Below, in pieces: positions 5,975-12,117 of a stretch of DNA of 38,142 nt. This DNA comes from Methanococcus voltae. Lineage in GTDB: Archaea > AGJL01 > Methanococci > Methanococcales > Methanococcaceae. The notes under the pieces were generated by a model that was not told the origin of the DNA, searched no databases, and saw only the letters and a list, made by a program, of their open reading frames with translations. Within the stretch, counting starts at the first letter, position 1; every line of letters begins with the position of its first letter. Where the stretch lies: NCBI RefSeq assembly GCF_024807655.1, contig NZ_JANUCR010000009.1:1-38142 (forward strand), given 5' to 3'. The position numbers were made by a program, and so were the translations under genes.

Positions 5975-6117
5975 CTCAAAAATCAAATGATTAAATATAT
6001 ATTTGATATGGGATATATTAAAAATTTACCAAATTTATTTTTATAACTTTTAAAAATATAAAACTCATTTATGAAATAAAATTTATTTATGAAATAAATA
6101 TGCCTGCTGGTGAATTA

Positions 6118-8163
6118 ATGGATTCAGAAATATTAAAAAAAGAGATAGAATCTTTAAAGAATAATAAAAATATGTTAAAAGATTATCTTAAAAGAAAATA
6201 TAGTAATGATATAATTTTTGATAAGAATAATATATTAATTGATTTAACAGATTTACAGAAAGAAGGCTTCTTTAAAGAAATAGATTTATTAGAATATAAT
6301 CCAAAAGAAGTTTTAAATTTTATTAGGGATACATATATCGATGCATATGAATCATTGAAAATAGTTAGGAAAGATATTAATATAATCCCATATCAATTAC
6401 CAGATTCCATTAATAAAAACAGTAAAAACAAACCAATGACTATAGAAGATATAAAAAGTAATAAATTAGGAAAATTGGTCGAATTTGAAGGAGTAGTAAC
6501 CGTATCTACAAAAATAAAATCTGCATTAAAAAAAGCAAAATTCATATGTCCTAAATGTGGGAATATTATAGATATAAATGTTGAGAATCCATTTGAAGGA
6601 TATATTGAACCAATGTGTAGTAATAAAAATTGTGGCGAATTAATGAATTTAAATGAAGAAAATTCAAAATATATAGATTATCAAGAGCTTAAAATTCAAC
6701 AACCATTGGACTTAATGGATGACCCTGAAGAACCACCCAAATATATAACAGTTCTATTGGAAAATTCTCCCGGCATATATTGTGGAAGGGTAAAAATAAC
6801 AGGAATTCCCGTTAAATCACAAAAAAATAAAAAAATACCAATATATGATATAATTGTAAAAGGTTTGAATTGCGAAATTATAGATAATAAATTAGAAGCA
6901 ATTCTTAATGAAGAAGATGTTGAAAAAATCAATAAAGTGAGTAAACATGATGATATTATCAATATATTATCAGAACGACTCATTCCTGAAATAAAAGGAT
7001 ATTCCACAATTAAAAAAGCAATATTATTACAACAAATTAAAGGCGTAAAAAAAGGAAACAAAAGGGCAGATAGCCATGTTTTATTAATAACTGACCCAGG
7101 TATAGGTAAATCAGTGATGTTAAGGAAAATAGCAGAAATACCTGGTAATGTTTATGGTTCTGCGACTACTGCCTCAGGTGTTGGTTTAACCGCAGCAGTT
7201 GTACGTGAAAAAACAGAAATAGGAGATGACACTTGGGTTATAAAACCAGGTCTTTTAGTTAAAGCAAATAAAGGTACTGCATGTATAGACGAGCTTACGG
7301 TAAATAGGGATTTACAAAGCTATGTTTTAGAAGCTATGGAAAGCCAAACAATTCATATTAACAAAGGAGGTATAAATACAAAATTATCCTCTGAATGTAG
7401 TATTCTTGCTGCATGTAATCCTAAATGGGGTCGTTTTGATAACAATGAAGCAGTTTCTGAGCAAATAAATATACCTGCACCAATGTTAAGCAGATTTGAC
7501 TTAATATTTCCTTTAAAAGATGAACCAGACCGTGCAAGAGATAAAGAAATAGGTAAACATATTATAAACATACATAAAGCCTATTTGGATAAAAATATAA
7601 AAGTAGATATGAAATTAGACAATATTATAATAGATGATATTCTAATAGATAATGACTTTATTATAAAATATATTATATATGCTCGACAGAAGCAGCCTAT
7701 AATATCTAAAGATGCTGAGAATATATTAGTAGAATATTATACTAATATGAGGAAAAGTTCAGTTCAGATTACAGCGAGACAATTAGAAGCTACAATTAGA
7801 ATTGCTGAAGCACATGCTAAAGCAAGACTTCATGATGAAGTTGATGAAGTTGATGCAATAGAAGCAATAAATATAATCACAGAATCGTTGAAAGAAATAG
7901 CCTATGACCCTGAAACAAATTCATTTGATATAGGTAAAGTGACGGGTGTTTCTAAAAAAGATGTAAATTATATGAAATCAGTATATCTGATTATAAAAAA
8001 TTTATCTAATGAATTGGATAATGAATTAGTTATTTATGAAGATATTGTCGATAAAGCAAATAAGGAAAATATCGACGAAACCCAAGTTAAAACGGCTTTG
8101 AAAAAATTAAAACAAGTTGGGGACATATATGAGCCGAAAAATAGAAAATATAGGATTATGTAA
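6118..8163 (+). CDS. mcm: MCM replicative helicase homologue
   Basis: Minichromosome maintenance AAA+ protein, about 681 residues; MCM hexamers unwind DNA ahead of the replication fork. ATG at 6118 is chosen because GGTGA lies 5 bases upstream; the ATG at 6100 has none and precedes that site. Numbering from 6100: zinc-binding Cys 150, 153, 173 and 178 in the N-terminal domain, Walker A TDPGIGKS (331-338), Walker B ACIDEL (394-399), sensor-1 AACNPKWGRF (N440), arginine finger LSRFD (R465), and a C-terminal winged helix. Oddity: the MCM box, normally IDEFDKM, reads IDELTVN and the following segment is about one residue shorter, so this is a divergent paralogue. Methanococcus species are known to carry several MCMs. 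It is followed 97 bases later by an Orc-like gene, supporting a replication role. Confidence 0.93.
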   Translation: MDSEILKKEIESLKNNKNMLKDYLKRKYSNDIIFDKNNILIDLTDLQKEGFFKEIDLLEYNPKEVLNFIRDTYIDAYESLKIVRKDINIIPYQLPDSINKNSKNKPMTIEDIKSNKLGKLVEFEGVVTVSTKIKSALKKAKFICPKCGNIIDINVENPFEGYIEPMCSNKNCGELMNLNEENSKYIDYQELKIQQPLDLMDDPEEPPKYITVLLENSPGIYCGRVKITGIPVKSQKNKKIPIYDIIVKGLNCEIIDNKLEAILNEEDVEKINKVSKHDDIINILSERLIPEIKGYSTIKKAILLQQIKGVKKGNKRADSHVLLITDPGIGKSVMLRKIAEIPGNVYGSATTASGVGLTAAVVREKTEIGDDTWVIKPGLLVKANKGTACIDELTVNRDLQSYVLEAMESQTIHINKGGINTKLSSECSILAACNPKWGRFDNNEAVSEQINIPAPMLSRFDLIFPLKDEPDRARDKEIGKHIINIHKAYLDKNIKVDMKLDNIIIDDILIDNDFIIKYIIYARQKQPIISKDAENILVEYYTNMRKSSVQITARQLEATIRIAEAHAKARLHDEVDEVDAIEAINIITESLKEIAYDPETNSFDIGKVTGVSKKDVNYMKSVYLIIKNLSNELDNELVIYEDIVDKANKENIDETQVKTALKKLKQVGDIYEPKNRKYRIM

Positions 8164-8260: not shown

Positions 8261-9298
8261 ATGAAATTAATTAAAAATTATCCTAAAACATATGATACTG
8301 GTGATTTATGGATTCAACCTACAAATCAATCCACCATATTAAATTATGATAATTGTTTTGAATTTAATTATATAAATAAAACCCCAATAATTAGGATATT
8401 AGGTAGCCCTTCAGTCAGTAAGATGATAAATAATCTATTAAATGCGATATCTAAAAAATTCGCATATGGAAAATATGATGTAAATCATATGAATAATATA
8501 TTTGAATATATAAATAAAGAATATAGAATAAATGGAAAATATAATCGTGCCAAAATAGGATGGTATAAAGTAATAGGCGATACTTTTAACGATTTAAAAA
8601 AAAATAATTTTGAAAAAGTACTTTTTAAATTAAATACATTACTTAAAAGTATAAAACCATTGATTGTAATTGATACCAATAACACATACGCCTGGAATTA
8701 CAATCATTCATTTAAAAGATTTGTAAATTGGTTAAATAATGATTTTTCAATAATTATAAGGACTCCTTTTAAAAATATAAAAAATATTAAACAACATTTT
8801 TCTAATTCAAAAATAAATAATTGTGCAGCATTAATCAATTACGCAAAAAATTTTGGTATATTAATAAAAAATTGCAAAGTAGCGGAGCGAATACTAAACA
8901 TATCGCATGGAAACATTACTGCAATAGAAATTATATTAAAAAATAGCAAAAGGGAATTAAAAACATTGCGTGATTTAAAAATACCTTGGAAAAAGGTGGC
9001 ATATCAAATAATACCAACTAATTTAAAAAAATTATACGAAAAGTGTATGCAGCTAAAAAAATTCAAAATACAAGATATCTACGAATCATATGATGAATTT
9101 ACCAAACCAACATTATATAGATATTTAAGTGAATTATGCAATATGGGTATATTATCAAAAAATAAAACTAAAAAAACAATTACGTTTAAAGTATTGATTA
9201 ATAAATTATTATTTAATCAAAAAATACACTATAAAAACTACATAAAGTTGTATGAAGAACTGTATCTAAAGAAAACGTTCTACCAGGATATGATATGA
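8261..9298 (+). CDS. Degenerate Orc1/Cdc6-like protein, C-terminal winged helix
   Basis: A 345-residue, very basic, Lys/Asn-rich protein. I do not recognise it by direct homology, but its layout is that of Orc1/Cdc6-like AAA+ proteins. It has an eroded P-loop, IRILGSPSVSKM (45-55), where the glycines of GxxGxGK[ST] are replaced but the lysine is kept. A strand PLIVIDTN (133-140) resembles Walker B but has Thr where the catalytic Glu should be. A helical sensor-2-like segment NISHGNITAIEIIL (213-226) and a winged helix at about 265-312 (TLYRYLSELCNMGILSKN) follow. ATP hydrolysis is therefore doubtful. A ribosome site, AGGGGCT, lies 4-5 bases before the ATG. It lies between mcm and the repeat-bounded AT-rich stretch at 9.3-9.75 kb. 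An alternative is an unrelated archaeal ATPase with HTH; the Orc assignment is inference. Confidence 0.6.
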   Translation: MKLIKNYPKTYDTGDLWIQPTNQSTILNYDNCFEFNYINKTPIIRILGSPSVSKMINNLLNAISKKFAYGKYDVNHMNNIFEYINKEYRINGKYNRAKIGWYKVIGDTFNDLKKNNFEKVLFKLNTLLKSIKPLIVIDTNNTYAWNYNHSFKRFVNWLNNDFSIIIRTPFKNIKNIKQHFSNSKINNCAALINYAKNFGILIKNCKVAERILNISHGNITAIEIILKNSKRELKTLRDLKIPWKKVAYQIIPTNLKKLYEKCMQLKKFKIQDIYESYDEFTKPTLYRYLSELCNMGILSKNKTKKTITFKVLINKLLFNQKIHYKNYIKLYEELYLKKTFYQDMI

Positions 9299-9367
9299 AA
9301 ATAATTAGTTTCGTTAGATAATATTCATTTTTAATCGTTTTTAGAATATATTATATCTTTTTTTAAG

Positions 9368-9381
9368 TTTCGGGTTTTCGA
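9368..9381 (+). repeat. Origin-type repeat, left copy
   Basis: TTTCGGGTTTTCGA, flanked by G on each side. It is matched 14 of 14 in inverted orientation at 9742-9755. C+G content is far above its surroundings. Confidence 0.75.
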
Positions 9382-9498
9382 GTGTGATGTATGTATAATA
9401 TAATTCGTTCATTTTTTTAAAAGTTTAACTTTTTACTGATAAAAATACTATCATTTTTAGACTATTTATTATATTATTATATATATCTACTATAATAG

Positions 9499-9530
9499 TA
9501 ATAATATAATAATATAATAATATAATAATA
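9499..9530. repeat. Tandem TAATAATA x4, likely unwinding element
   Basis: Four exact 8-base units in a stretch made almost wholly of A and T, lying between the inverted origin-type repeats. It is a good candidate for the DNA-unwinding element, though simple AT repeats are also common by chance in this genome. Confidence 0.6.
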
Positions 9531-9723
9531 TATAATTATGAATATTATGTTAAAAATGTGTTAAAATACTTCAAAAACGTAAAATACATATTTAAGCAAC
9601 ATGACAAAAGTTTTTTAATAAAAAAAATAGTAAAATACAAAAGTTAACGTTATAACATTAAAAAAAGTTTTAAAATAAAAAGAGACATATTATAATATTT
9701 TTACACCTTATATTTTAAAATGA

Positions 9724-9733
9724 TTTATATATA
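9724..9733. promoter_or_regulatory. TATA box inside the origin candidate
   Basis: TTTATATATA, close to the methanogen box-A consensus, preceded by an A/T-rich BRE-like stretch. On the + strand it would start transcription at about 9755, within the right-hand repeat and antisense to the HTH gene. The sequence is nearly symmetric, so leftward transcription into the AT-rich core is equally possible. No gene is served by it. Confidence 0.35.
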
Positions 9734-9741
9734 GCACTAAT

Positions 9742-9755
9742 TCGAAAACCCGAAA
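9742..9755 (-). repeat. Origin-type repeat, right copy
   Basis: TCGAAAACCCGAAA is the exact reverse complement of the left copy at 9368-9381, about 374 bases away. It abuts the stop codon of the HTH gene at 9757. Confidence 0.75.
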
Positions 9756-9756
9756 A

Positions 9757-10254
9757 TCATAAAGTATCTAGTAATTTCTTTAACTCTTCAACATGTTCAC
9801 AATTTTTGGATTGGCAAGATATGCACCAATATTGTTGGTCTGGTAGTTCATATATTTCATAGTCTTTTAAATATTTTTTAAATTGGATTTTATAAGTTTT
9901 AGCACCGTATTTATCGATTATTTTATCAAAACTTTTAATATTTTTATTATTTACTTCATCAAAAGTTTTTATATTGTTTTCTTCACAATTTTTGTTTTTT
10001 TTATCTACTATTTCTTTTAATATAGAAGTATATGCTTTATTTACATTATATATCTTTGTTTTACCTTTAGTATTGTAATATATAACTTCAAAGCTGTTTA
10101 AAACATTTAAATATTGGGATATGAACCCTTTTGATAATTTGGTATTTTTTTCTATATCGTTTATACAGTTGTTTTTATGTTCCAATATATATTTTATTAG
10201 TTTATACCTTTGATTGGTATTTATTATTTTATTAATATGGTCTTTATCGCTCAT
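9757..10254 (-). CDS. HTH protein with C-terminal Cys/His zinc motif
   Basis: About 165 residues. The first 75 form a winged helix-turn-helix of the ArsR/MarR type (YKLIKYILEHKNNC, then SKGFISQYLNVLNSFEVI). A Lys/Asn/Asp-rich linker follows, and the C-terminus carries C-x2-C-x4-C-x-H in WCISCQSKNCEH, a likely zinc site somewhat like a SWIM finger. The chosen start is ATG at 10254, preceded by GGGTAA; an upstream ATG at 10272 adds six residues. I do not recognise the family. It lies between two AT-rich gene-free regions and two Orc-like genes, its stop touches an origin-type repeat, and two tandem 18-base repeats lie just upstream of its start. A role in origin or initiator-gene control is possible but unproven. 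Confidence 0.65.
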   Translation of the reverse strand: MSDKDHINKIINTNQRYKLIKYILEHKNNCINDIEKNTKLSKGFISQYLNVLNSFEVIYYNTKGKTKIYNVNKAYTSILKEIVDKKNKNCEENNIKTFDEVNNKNIKSFDKIIDKYGAKTYKIQFKKYLKDYEIYELPDQQYWCISCQSKNCEHVEELKKLLDTL

Positions 10255-10291
10255 AATTACCCATTTACTCATTAATTATATTATTTATATC

Positions 10292-10328
10292 ATTTTTTTC
10301 AATCATATGTATTTTTTTCAATCATATG
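10292..10328. repeat. Tandem 18-base repeat, possible operator
   Basis: ATTTTTTTCAATCATATG occurs at 10292-10309 and again, identical, at 10311-10328 (period 19, about two helical turns). It lies 37-75 bases before the HTH gene start, next to an A/T-rich TATA-like stretch, which is where an autoregulatory operator would sit. Confidence 0.55.
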
Positions 10329-10773
10329 CTTTAAAATTCACGTAATAGAAATTATTACCTTTTATAATAATTTTATTACATATTGATTTTATTAATATAT
10401 ACTTATTTTTAAAATATATCGTATTATATACTATATTTATATCCCATTTATCTTTTTTAATTGATAATATTATATTGTTGATTTTATTAATGTCTTTTTA
10501 ATTATTTATTATAATATTCACATTTTTAATAATATTTATTAAGTTATACCTTAGTATTTTAGTTTATTAAACTTATTTTTATTACATAAGGATATTTTAA
10601 ATATATTATTAAATTTTATTAAACTTATTTTTATTTATTTTTATTATATTTAATATATATAATATTCTTTATTTTTTAAAAATTACAATATATTCATAAT
10701 ATTACAAGGATTAATAATAATATTCACAATATTAATTATTTATTATATATTATACTATTAAATATTAATCTCT

Positions 10774-10788
10774 TTCGAAAATTCGAAA
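10774..10788. repeat. Origin-type motif upstream of Orc-like gene
   Basis: TTCGAAAATTCGAAA matches 13 of 15 bases of 9741-9755 (TT in place of CC) and is itself made of two TTCGAAA half-sites 8 bases apart. It lies about 105 bases before the start of the intact Orc-like gene. It could be an initiator-binding or autoregulatory site. Confidence 0.5.
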
Positions 10789-10893
10789 CATATAAAAATA
10801 TCCAATATCATATAATATATTCTTATGAAAATCCTTATAAATGTTAAAAATATTTAGAAATATATTTAAATATTATTGTGTATTGGTGGTTTT

Positions 10894-12117
10894 ATGATAG
10901 ATCCTATTGAGTTTATACACAATGCATCATCTATATCTAAAAAATCTATGAATAGATTAAAATTAAAGTCCAATCCATTTTCTGAAAAACCTATTCGGGG
11001 AAACACTAAATTTTTTGTAGGTAGAAATTCAGAACTTTCAGAAATAGCTGACATTTTAGGTGCGGCTCAATATGGTAGTGTAGCTAATGCAGCAATTGTT
11101 GGTACTAAAGGTATTGGTAAGAGCTCCATATTAAATATACTATATTACGCAGCAAAAAGACATGGGCACTGGATTGTGCAGTTAGAGGCTTCTCAGGTAA
11201 CTGCAAGACAATTTTTAATTCAGCTGATGCATAGTATTATAGGAGATAATTTATTTTCTGTAGATGGTACTTTATCTACGAATTATATGGAACATTCTAA
11301 AAAAATAATAGAAATATATCGACGTTTAAATACATACAGTGATAAAACGCCCGTTCATTATCCTCGTGAAAAAATTGAAAGGGATTTAAAATATTTATTA
11401 CATAATGTTAAAGAAGAGGGTAAATTATGTGTTATATTGGTTGATGAGGCGGATCAATTTGCAAAAAGAAGCTGTTTGGGGTTATTGCAATTTTTCCACT
11501 CTTTCTTATATGAGGATGATATTTTAGCCTTCTTTGCAGGGCCTCCTACTATGATGGAAGATTTAACCAAAATATCGCCTGCAATAAGAGACCGTATTCC
11601 TAAAGTTATTAATATGCCCCCTCTTGATAAGGTAGAAGCACATGATTTAATATTGAGGCGTTTAGAAGATGTTCACACTAATGGAGCTTCTGAATATGAT
11701 CCATTTACTCCAGAAAGCATTGAGAAAATAATTGAAGAGTGTGATGGTATACCAAGACGTATTATTATGACGTGTTCTGAAGCTATATCTATTGGTCTAA
11801 AAAATAGCTCTACAATTGTTGATGAGGCTATGGTGGAATCTGCATTGAAAAAATTAGGTATAAGTGTTGGTCATCAAATATTAAACCACTTAACACCTGC
11901 TCAGTCTAAAATAGTTAGGGCTATGGCGGATTTGGGGGGTAGTTCTACAGTTACCGAACTTTCGGGTGTATTGAATAACTCACCAGGTACGATAGGTACG
12001 CATTTGTCAGATATTTACGAAATGGGTTATGTATATAAGGAAAGAGATGGTTATAATGTATATTATACATTATCTAAAGAATTAAAAGATGTTTTGATTA
12101 TAGAAAAGGATGAATAA
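10894..12117 (+). CDS. Orc1/Cdc6-like AAA+ ATPase, MJ0774 family
   Basis: A 407-residue AAA+ ATPase with C-terminal winged helix. The start is ATG at 10894, with GGTGG 4 bases upstream. Numbered from it: FVGRNSEL (41-48), typical of Orc/AAA_16 proteins; Walker A GTKGIGKS (70-77); Walker B CVILVDEAD (179-187) with the catalytic Glu; a sensor-1-like AFFAGPP (212-218); a sensor-2 region DGIPRR (284-289); and a winged helix at about 335-395. Gene order (just before mptA) matches M. jannaschii MJ0774, which has been proposed as a distant Orc1/Cdc6 homologue. Its likely job is to bind the origin and help load MCM. It is separated from mcm by 2.7 kb holding the origin candidate. The ATPase call is firm, the initiator role is probable. 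Confidence 0.82.
   Translation: MIDPIEFIHNASSISKKSMNRLKLKSNPFSEKPIRGNTKFFVGRNSELSEIADILGAAQYGSVANAAIVGTKGIGKSSILNILYYAAKRHGHWIVQLEASQVTARQFLIQLMHSIIGDNLFSVDGTLSTNYMEHSKKIIEIYRRLNTYSDKTPVHYPREKIERDLKYLLHNVKEEGKLCVILVDEADQFAKRSCLGLLQFFHSFLYEDDILAFFAGPPTMMEDLTKISPAIRDRIPKVINMPPLDKVEAHDLILRRLEDVHTNGASEYDPFTPESIEKIIEECDGIPRRIIMTCSEAISIGLKNSSTIVDEAMVESALKKLGISVGHQILNHLTPAQSKIVRAMADLGGSSTVTELSGVLNNSPGTIGTHLSDIYEMGYVYKERDGYNVYYTLSKELKDVLIIEKDE

Follow-up and report, generated by a model that had tools for sequence, protein, structure and literature searches.

An inverted box pair beside putative initiator genes is probably part of the Methanococcales replication origin

The window, meaning the whole 38,142-nucleotide stretch of Methanococcus voltae DNA analyzed here, contains the gene of the replicative helicase (mcm, 6100..8163, + strand), which in Methanococcaceae lies directly upstream of a gene for a divergent Orc-like protein that we call OrcL (8261..9298, +). 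Convergent with OrcL is HTHZn (9757..10272, -), encoding an ArsR-like winged helix with a C-terminal zinc motif (WC..CQS..C.H). An AAA+ Cdc6-like protein is encoded on the other side of HTHZn (10894..12117, +), in a reading frame that opens at a TTG at 10876, and beyond it lie folE2, an ATP-grasp gene, a TFE-like gene and an HD-domain gene. A preliminary description of this DNA had placed mcm and two Orc-like genes within 5 kb, and we recovered exactly this arrangement (mcm, with flanking genes at 8261-9298 and 10876/10894-12117). Near mcm of M. maripaludis, Berthon et al. (2008, PMC2643942) described a Cdc6-like homologue that is related to the candidate of M. jannaschii.

We followed these genes in 36 Methanococcales genomes (the order and phylum sets are identical). 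OrcL was found in 26 of them. Its AF2 model (pLDDT 84) predicts an AAA+-like fold followed by a C-terminal winged helix, with a weak resemblance to AAA+ proteins (Apaf-1, RFC, ORC, Cdc6/Orc1); Foldseek gave 1.5e-4 for Apaf-1 and 0.02-0.06 for ORC and Cdc6/Orc1, at a TM of about 0.2. The Walker A position has no glycine-rich loop (GSPSVSKM), no profile match to Orc1/Cdc6 was obtained by sequence in NCBIfam or PDB, and the only domain matches were weak ones to wHTH and, in some relatives, to Hda_lid. As the likeness is weak and based on fold, "Orc-like" is used here as a lead and not as family membership. Homology by sequence between OrcL and the AAA+ Cdc6-like protein was also considered and rejected as not significant. 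In the 85%-complete genome G009 (L018), the OrcL reading frame harbors an internal TAG.

HTHZn (165-176 aa) adjoins OrcL in 26 of 26 loci, and its C-terminal WC..C....C.H motif is invariant. The AAA+ Cdc6-like protein is 68-99% identical in 27 of the 36 genomes and has both an intact Walker A (GTKGIGKSS) and Walker B (LVDEAD) as well as a C-terminal ArsR-like winged helix. It weakly matches the orc1/cdc6 family TIGR02928 (E about 1e-7 to 6e-4, below the cut-off); the M. voltae protein reaches 30 bits, compared to a curated cut-off of 181. No Orc1/Cdc6 above the curated cut-off was found in any of the 36 genomes, and no AAA+ Cdc6-like gene was found on plasmids. This gene is adjacent to OrcL and HTHZn in all locus-bearing genomes except G003, where, uniquely, it has been relocated to a site (G003:C1:297336-298538) some 190 kb from OrcL, HTHZn and the boxes.

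The gap between the convergent genes (9299-9756) contains the 14-mer TTTCGGGTTTTCGA at 9368-9381 (+) and at 9742-9755 (-). Both copies are exact, confirming the perfect inverted pair of the preliminary description, and they are the only exact copies in the whole genome (1,857,959 bases, 18 contigs). The single one-mismatch copy sits outside the locus. Clustering of the 14-mer at this place is seen in the exact copies; at up to two mismatches, the 25 matches are at the level of the reversed-pattern control (23). A longer inverted box, the 29-mer TTTCGRRTTTTCGANNNNNATRTATRTAT, proved to contain the 14-mer as its outer half. The left box, in its extended form TTTCGGGTTTTCGAGTGTGATGTATGTATAAT (9368..9399, +), points toward the core of the gap and has no mismatch to the order-wide 29-mer; the inverted right box, TTTCGGGTTTTCGAATTAGTGCTATATATAAA (9724..9755, -), retains the outer 14 bases exactly, and its inner half is degenerate in M. 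voltae.

When the 36 genomes were searched with the 29-mer, allowing one mismatch, all 40 matches fell at the origin-candidate locus, and the reversed control gave none at the same stringency. Together with the genome counts, this confinement to one locus rules out a chance 14-mer. The box pair TTTCGRRTTTTCGA (up to two mismatches) lies inverted just downstream of OrcL in 26 loci. The region is therefore kept throughout the Methanococcales (26 of 36 genomes with an OrcL-box locus), as the preliminary description had anticipated for an origin. A related-locus search in named genomes returned four loci, two of them named Methanocaldococcus. The inverted 14-base pair is spaced by 346-375 bp in 25 of the 26 locus-bearing genomes, the exception being G018, with boxes 627 bp apart; for G009 the pair listing gives 361 bp, the matrix script having chosen another weak site there. 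Extended inward, the order-wide form of the box is TTTCGRRTTTTCGA-N5-ATRTATRTAT, and a matrix built from 52 boxes holds about 41 bits. The full 29-mer is usually present twice per genome in Methanocaldococcus, and both copies also occur in several Methanococcaceae; some Methanococcus species have one full copy, as is often the case in this genus. G016-G018 have none at up to one mismatch because the inner or outer half of the box has drifted.

In 16 of the 26 relatives, though not in M. voltae, OrcL itself carries a third box at the 3' end of its coding sequence. The Methanocaldococcus copy (around 5466-5490 in L034, for example) encodes the FEFS-type C-terminal tail of OrcL; since this box is written in OrcL codons, constraint on the DNA site may shape the end of the protein. 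Strict 14-mers distant from the locus were rejected as extra origins: those inspected lie mostly in coding sequence and lack the inner half, and none in the 36 genomes matches the 29-mer. No match to the box was found among viruses in IMG/VR. As separate observations, a strict 14-mer sits in an rRNA operon of several Methanococcaceae, in the space between the genes for 5S rRNA and RNase P RNA (L047:3183, L048:5738, L077:5045), about 11 kb from the origin candidate in G022 and G033, and G035 has two identical intergenic 14-mer boxes (L041, 739310; L044, 1260591), each 106 bp from the end of one of two near-identical 221-aa genes for putative Cas family proteins.

Between the boxes lies the AT-rich core (9400..9723), for which both A/T content and computed stability suggest a role as unwinding region. 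The A/T content is 84.1% in the whole gap (9299-9756), 87.0% in 9397-9726 and 73.6% in the 38-kb window; "almost pure A/T", as the core had been called, is thus right in kind and slightly overstated. The least stable 100 bp of the entire window are found at 9439-9538, between the boxes. Across 10 loci, the least stable 100 bp fall between the boxes in 7 and in the divergent gap in the other 3. The sequence of the core itself is barely conserved. Four exact tandem TAATAATA units are indeed present at 9499..9530, as first described, but they are species-specific and were rejected as part of the origin because they are not kept in relatives. Repeated boxes around AT-rich, easily melted intergenic DNA, as expected of an archaeal origin, are thus present at this locus.

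The second gap of the cluster, between the divergent HTHZn and AAA+ genes (10273..10893), measures 600-850 bp in relatives and contains direct ATTCAYR(A) repeats, the clearest of which in M. voltae are at 10692 and 10722, 30 bp apart. Counted from the HTHZn start, the ATTCAYR repeats keep their positions in equivalent gaps, at about 90, 271/301 and 457/487, and are often paired at 30 bp, about three helical turns. Upstream of the AAA+ gene, a box-like TTTCGAATTTTCGA (10775..10788, -) adjoins a TATA-like sequence; it probably belongs to the promoter of this gene or serves as an autoregulatory site. Zhang and Zhang (2004; cited in PMC5333045 and PMC4164010) reportedly predicted an oriC of Methanocaldococcus jannaschii in silico; the divergent gap of G004 (about 694,540-695,226) presumably coincides with it. 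That prediction falls in the same gene neighborhood, about 0.5-1 kb from the boxes. Furthermore, the "Methanococcaceae ORB" of Ori-Finder 2, TT[TA][GT]ATTCA[TC][GA]AT[AT]T[AT]T[AT] (PMC4164010), matches the divergent gap in most of the 26 genomes and has no match in the box gap of any of them. The published repeats and the inverted boxes therefore belong to the same locus, in neighboring gaps of one gene cluster, and differ in that the boxes have another sequence and the published repeats are direct and confined to the divergent gap. The box also fails the canonical ORB/mini-ORB consensus (TCCA-GAAA type) and matches no entry of the archaeal ORB list in PMC4164010, the Methanococcaceae one included, in agreement with the initial impression that the motif was unlike either.

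Given the earlier predicted origin and the published repeats in the adjacent gap, the locus is not wholly new: it was already suspected as an origin, and the new part is the inverted boxes. As the published repeats occupy the neighboring gap, the boxes are apparently an undescribed second element of a bipartite origin; no earlier record of them was found in the openly readable papers.

The same position of the predicted origin and its repeats could also mean that the divergent gap (10273-10893) alone is the origin and that the boxes are an accessory site titrating or regulating the initiator, a role proposed in Haloarcula hispanica for the ORB cluster close to oriC2 (PMC4010727). This is the main rival of our reading. 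The restriction of the published ORB to the divergent gap, the M. jannaschii prediction (reportedly 694,540-695,226) coinciding with this gap and the three loci whose least stable DNA lies there all speak for it. However, the boxes exceed the ATTCAYR repeats in length and specificity, they flank the least stable DNA at the seven remaining loci and are inverted like archaeal ORBs, and in G003 they stayed with OrcL and HTHZn when the AAA+ gene moved off. We therefore regard an origin restricted to the divergent gap as unlikely.

It is improbable that the boxes are a centromere-like site for chromosome segregation, bound by HTHZn or OrcL. Such sites are usually near origins, and AspA, the centromere protein of an archaeal plasmid, is one of many proteins that the winged helices of HTHZn and of the AAA+ protein resemble; yet this match is generic to winged helices, the module has no ParA-like partner, and a layout around unstable DNA fits unwinding better. 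Very improbable, in our view, is that the boxes are inward-facing promoters or operators (a BRE-like TTTCGA followed by a TATA-like stretch) for an RNA transcribed from the gap. Such a role would fit the upstream region of the AAA+ gene, where TATA-like DNA follows TTTCGAAA, and the strict 14-mer that some Methanococcaceae have between the genes for 5S rRNA and RNase P RNA. However, the flanking genes converge on the gap with their 3' ends, which excludes that it holds their promoters, and within it neither an Rfam match to a known structured RNA nor a conserved reading frame was seen. Moreover, the inner half CATGTATGTATATG makes a poor methanogen TATA box, and no other promoter in the 36 genomes carries the full 29-mer.

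We then determined GC skew at third codon positions in five module-bearing genomes, with gene strand regressed out and significance assessed by block permutation, in a sample of about a quarter of each genome that was denser near the locus. The skew optimum was at 775 kb in G033 (box at 777; scan maximum p 0.003), at 960 kb in G015 (box at 977; p 0.007), at 1205 kb in G018 (box at 1049; p 0.027) and at 1205 kb in G022 (box at 1203; p 0.03 at the locus, scan maximum p 0.47). At-locus values were below p 0.04 in four genomes, and the scan maximum was unusual in G033, G015 and G018 and not in G022. In the sampled stretches of G004, coding DNA showed no turn at the locus, and the intergenic skew alone turned, at 700 kb (box at 694; p 0.026). 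The skew turn foreseen in the preliminary description is therefore present with origin sign at or near the locus, but it is clear in two of five genomes (G033, G015), weak in G022 and G018 and limited to DNA between genes in G004. Inverted sites and a skew turning point mark replication termini too, but a terminus or resolution site can hardly be upheld here, as the skew goes from C-rich to G-rich rightward, which is the sign expected of an origin if, as usual, the leading strand is G-rich, and initiator-like genes and mcm adjoin.

Boxes, OrcL, HTHZn and the AAA+ gene are missing together from G021, G024-G028, G031 and G032; the fragmented genomes G029 and G011 were left out of this count. The module-less subclade is part of one Methanococcaceae genus, and several of its genomes are 96-99% complete, G028 being a single contig. 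Synteny around folE2 is broken in both module-less genomes inspected (G021 and G028), and G028 shows no origin-type skew turn around the folE2 region. MCMs of G021, G024, G025, G026, G028 and G032 are only 42-51% identical to the origin-linked MCM, whereas in module-bearing genomes the best copy reaches 58-66%, a difference that suggests, from protein identity, that the linked MCM was lost along with the module. The joint absence is probably one evolutionary event, and the subclade represents a natural deletion experiment.

The origin reading put forward in the preliminary description is favored by every check of it that could be run; with boxes that are clustered and conserved and a skew that turns, it is supported, not proven. 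We consider it likely that the region is part of a two-part chromosomal origin of Methanococcales, in which the boxes are the initiator-binding and unwinding part. In the convergent gap (9299-9756), the two inverted boxes, each about 30 bp long, would be bound by an initiator; the least stable DNA between them would then melt, and MCM could be loaded there. In the divergent gap (10273-10893), the direct ATTCAYR repeats may bind a second initiator component. HTHZn and the AAA+ Cdc6-like gene would also be transcribed from promoters in this gap, and since the repeats share it with both promoters, initiator supply could be autoregulated. OrcL, HTHZn and the AAA+ Cdc6-like protein are the likely players. 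A further reading, less likely than not, is that these three proteins, of which OrcL lacks a Walker A, form a lineage-specific initiator acting on the bipartite origin, with the boxes recognized by a protein that is not a canonical Orc1, and that one subclade discarded the module, apparently with the origin-linked MCM orthologue, and replicates by another route.

According to reviews, Methanococcales have no recognizable Orc1/Cdc6 or only very divergent ones, an analysis of M. maripaludis S2 led to no conclusion, and initiation there is unexplained (PMC3984812, PMC5333045). The start point of replication has long been sought in this order, and the inverted box pair beside putative initiator genes probably belongs to it. 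As the box marks one place per genome and three candidate initiators adjoin it, the question of initiation becomes directly testable in M. maripaludis, a species with good genetics.

Like the locus described here, Pyrococcus oriC, Sulfolobus oriC1 and haloarchaeal oriC1 occupy one chromosomal place next to initiator-like genes and have asymmetric boxes in inverted orientation on both sides of an AT-rich unwinding region, which in Methanococcales is a putative one. However, the sequence of the Methanococcales box is unrelated to the TCCA..GAAA ORBs of these origins. Additionally, it lies between convergent genes, whereas in orc1/cdc6-linked origins the boxes are upstream of the initiator, and the locus further differs from those in its very divergent initiator candidates and in having a second gap with other repeats. 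For the proteins, a parallel is Sulfolobus oriC3 with its winged-helix initiator WhiP: here, too, the origin may be bound by a winged-helix protein that has no normal AAA+ ATPase, although the ArsR-like fold and zinc motif of HTHZn may set it apart from WhiP.
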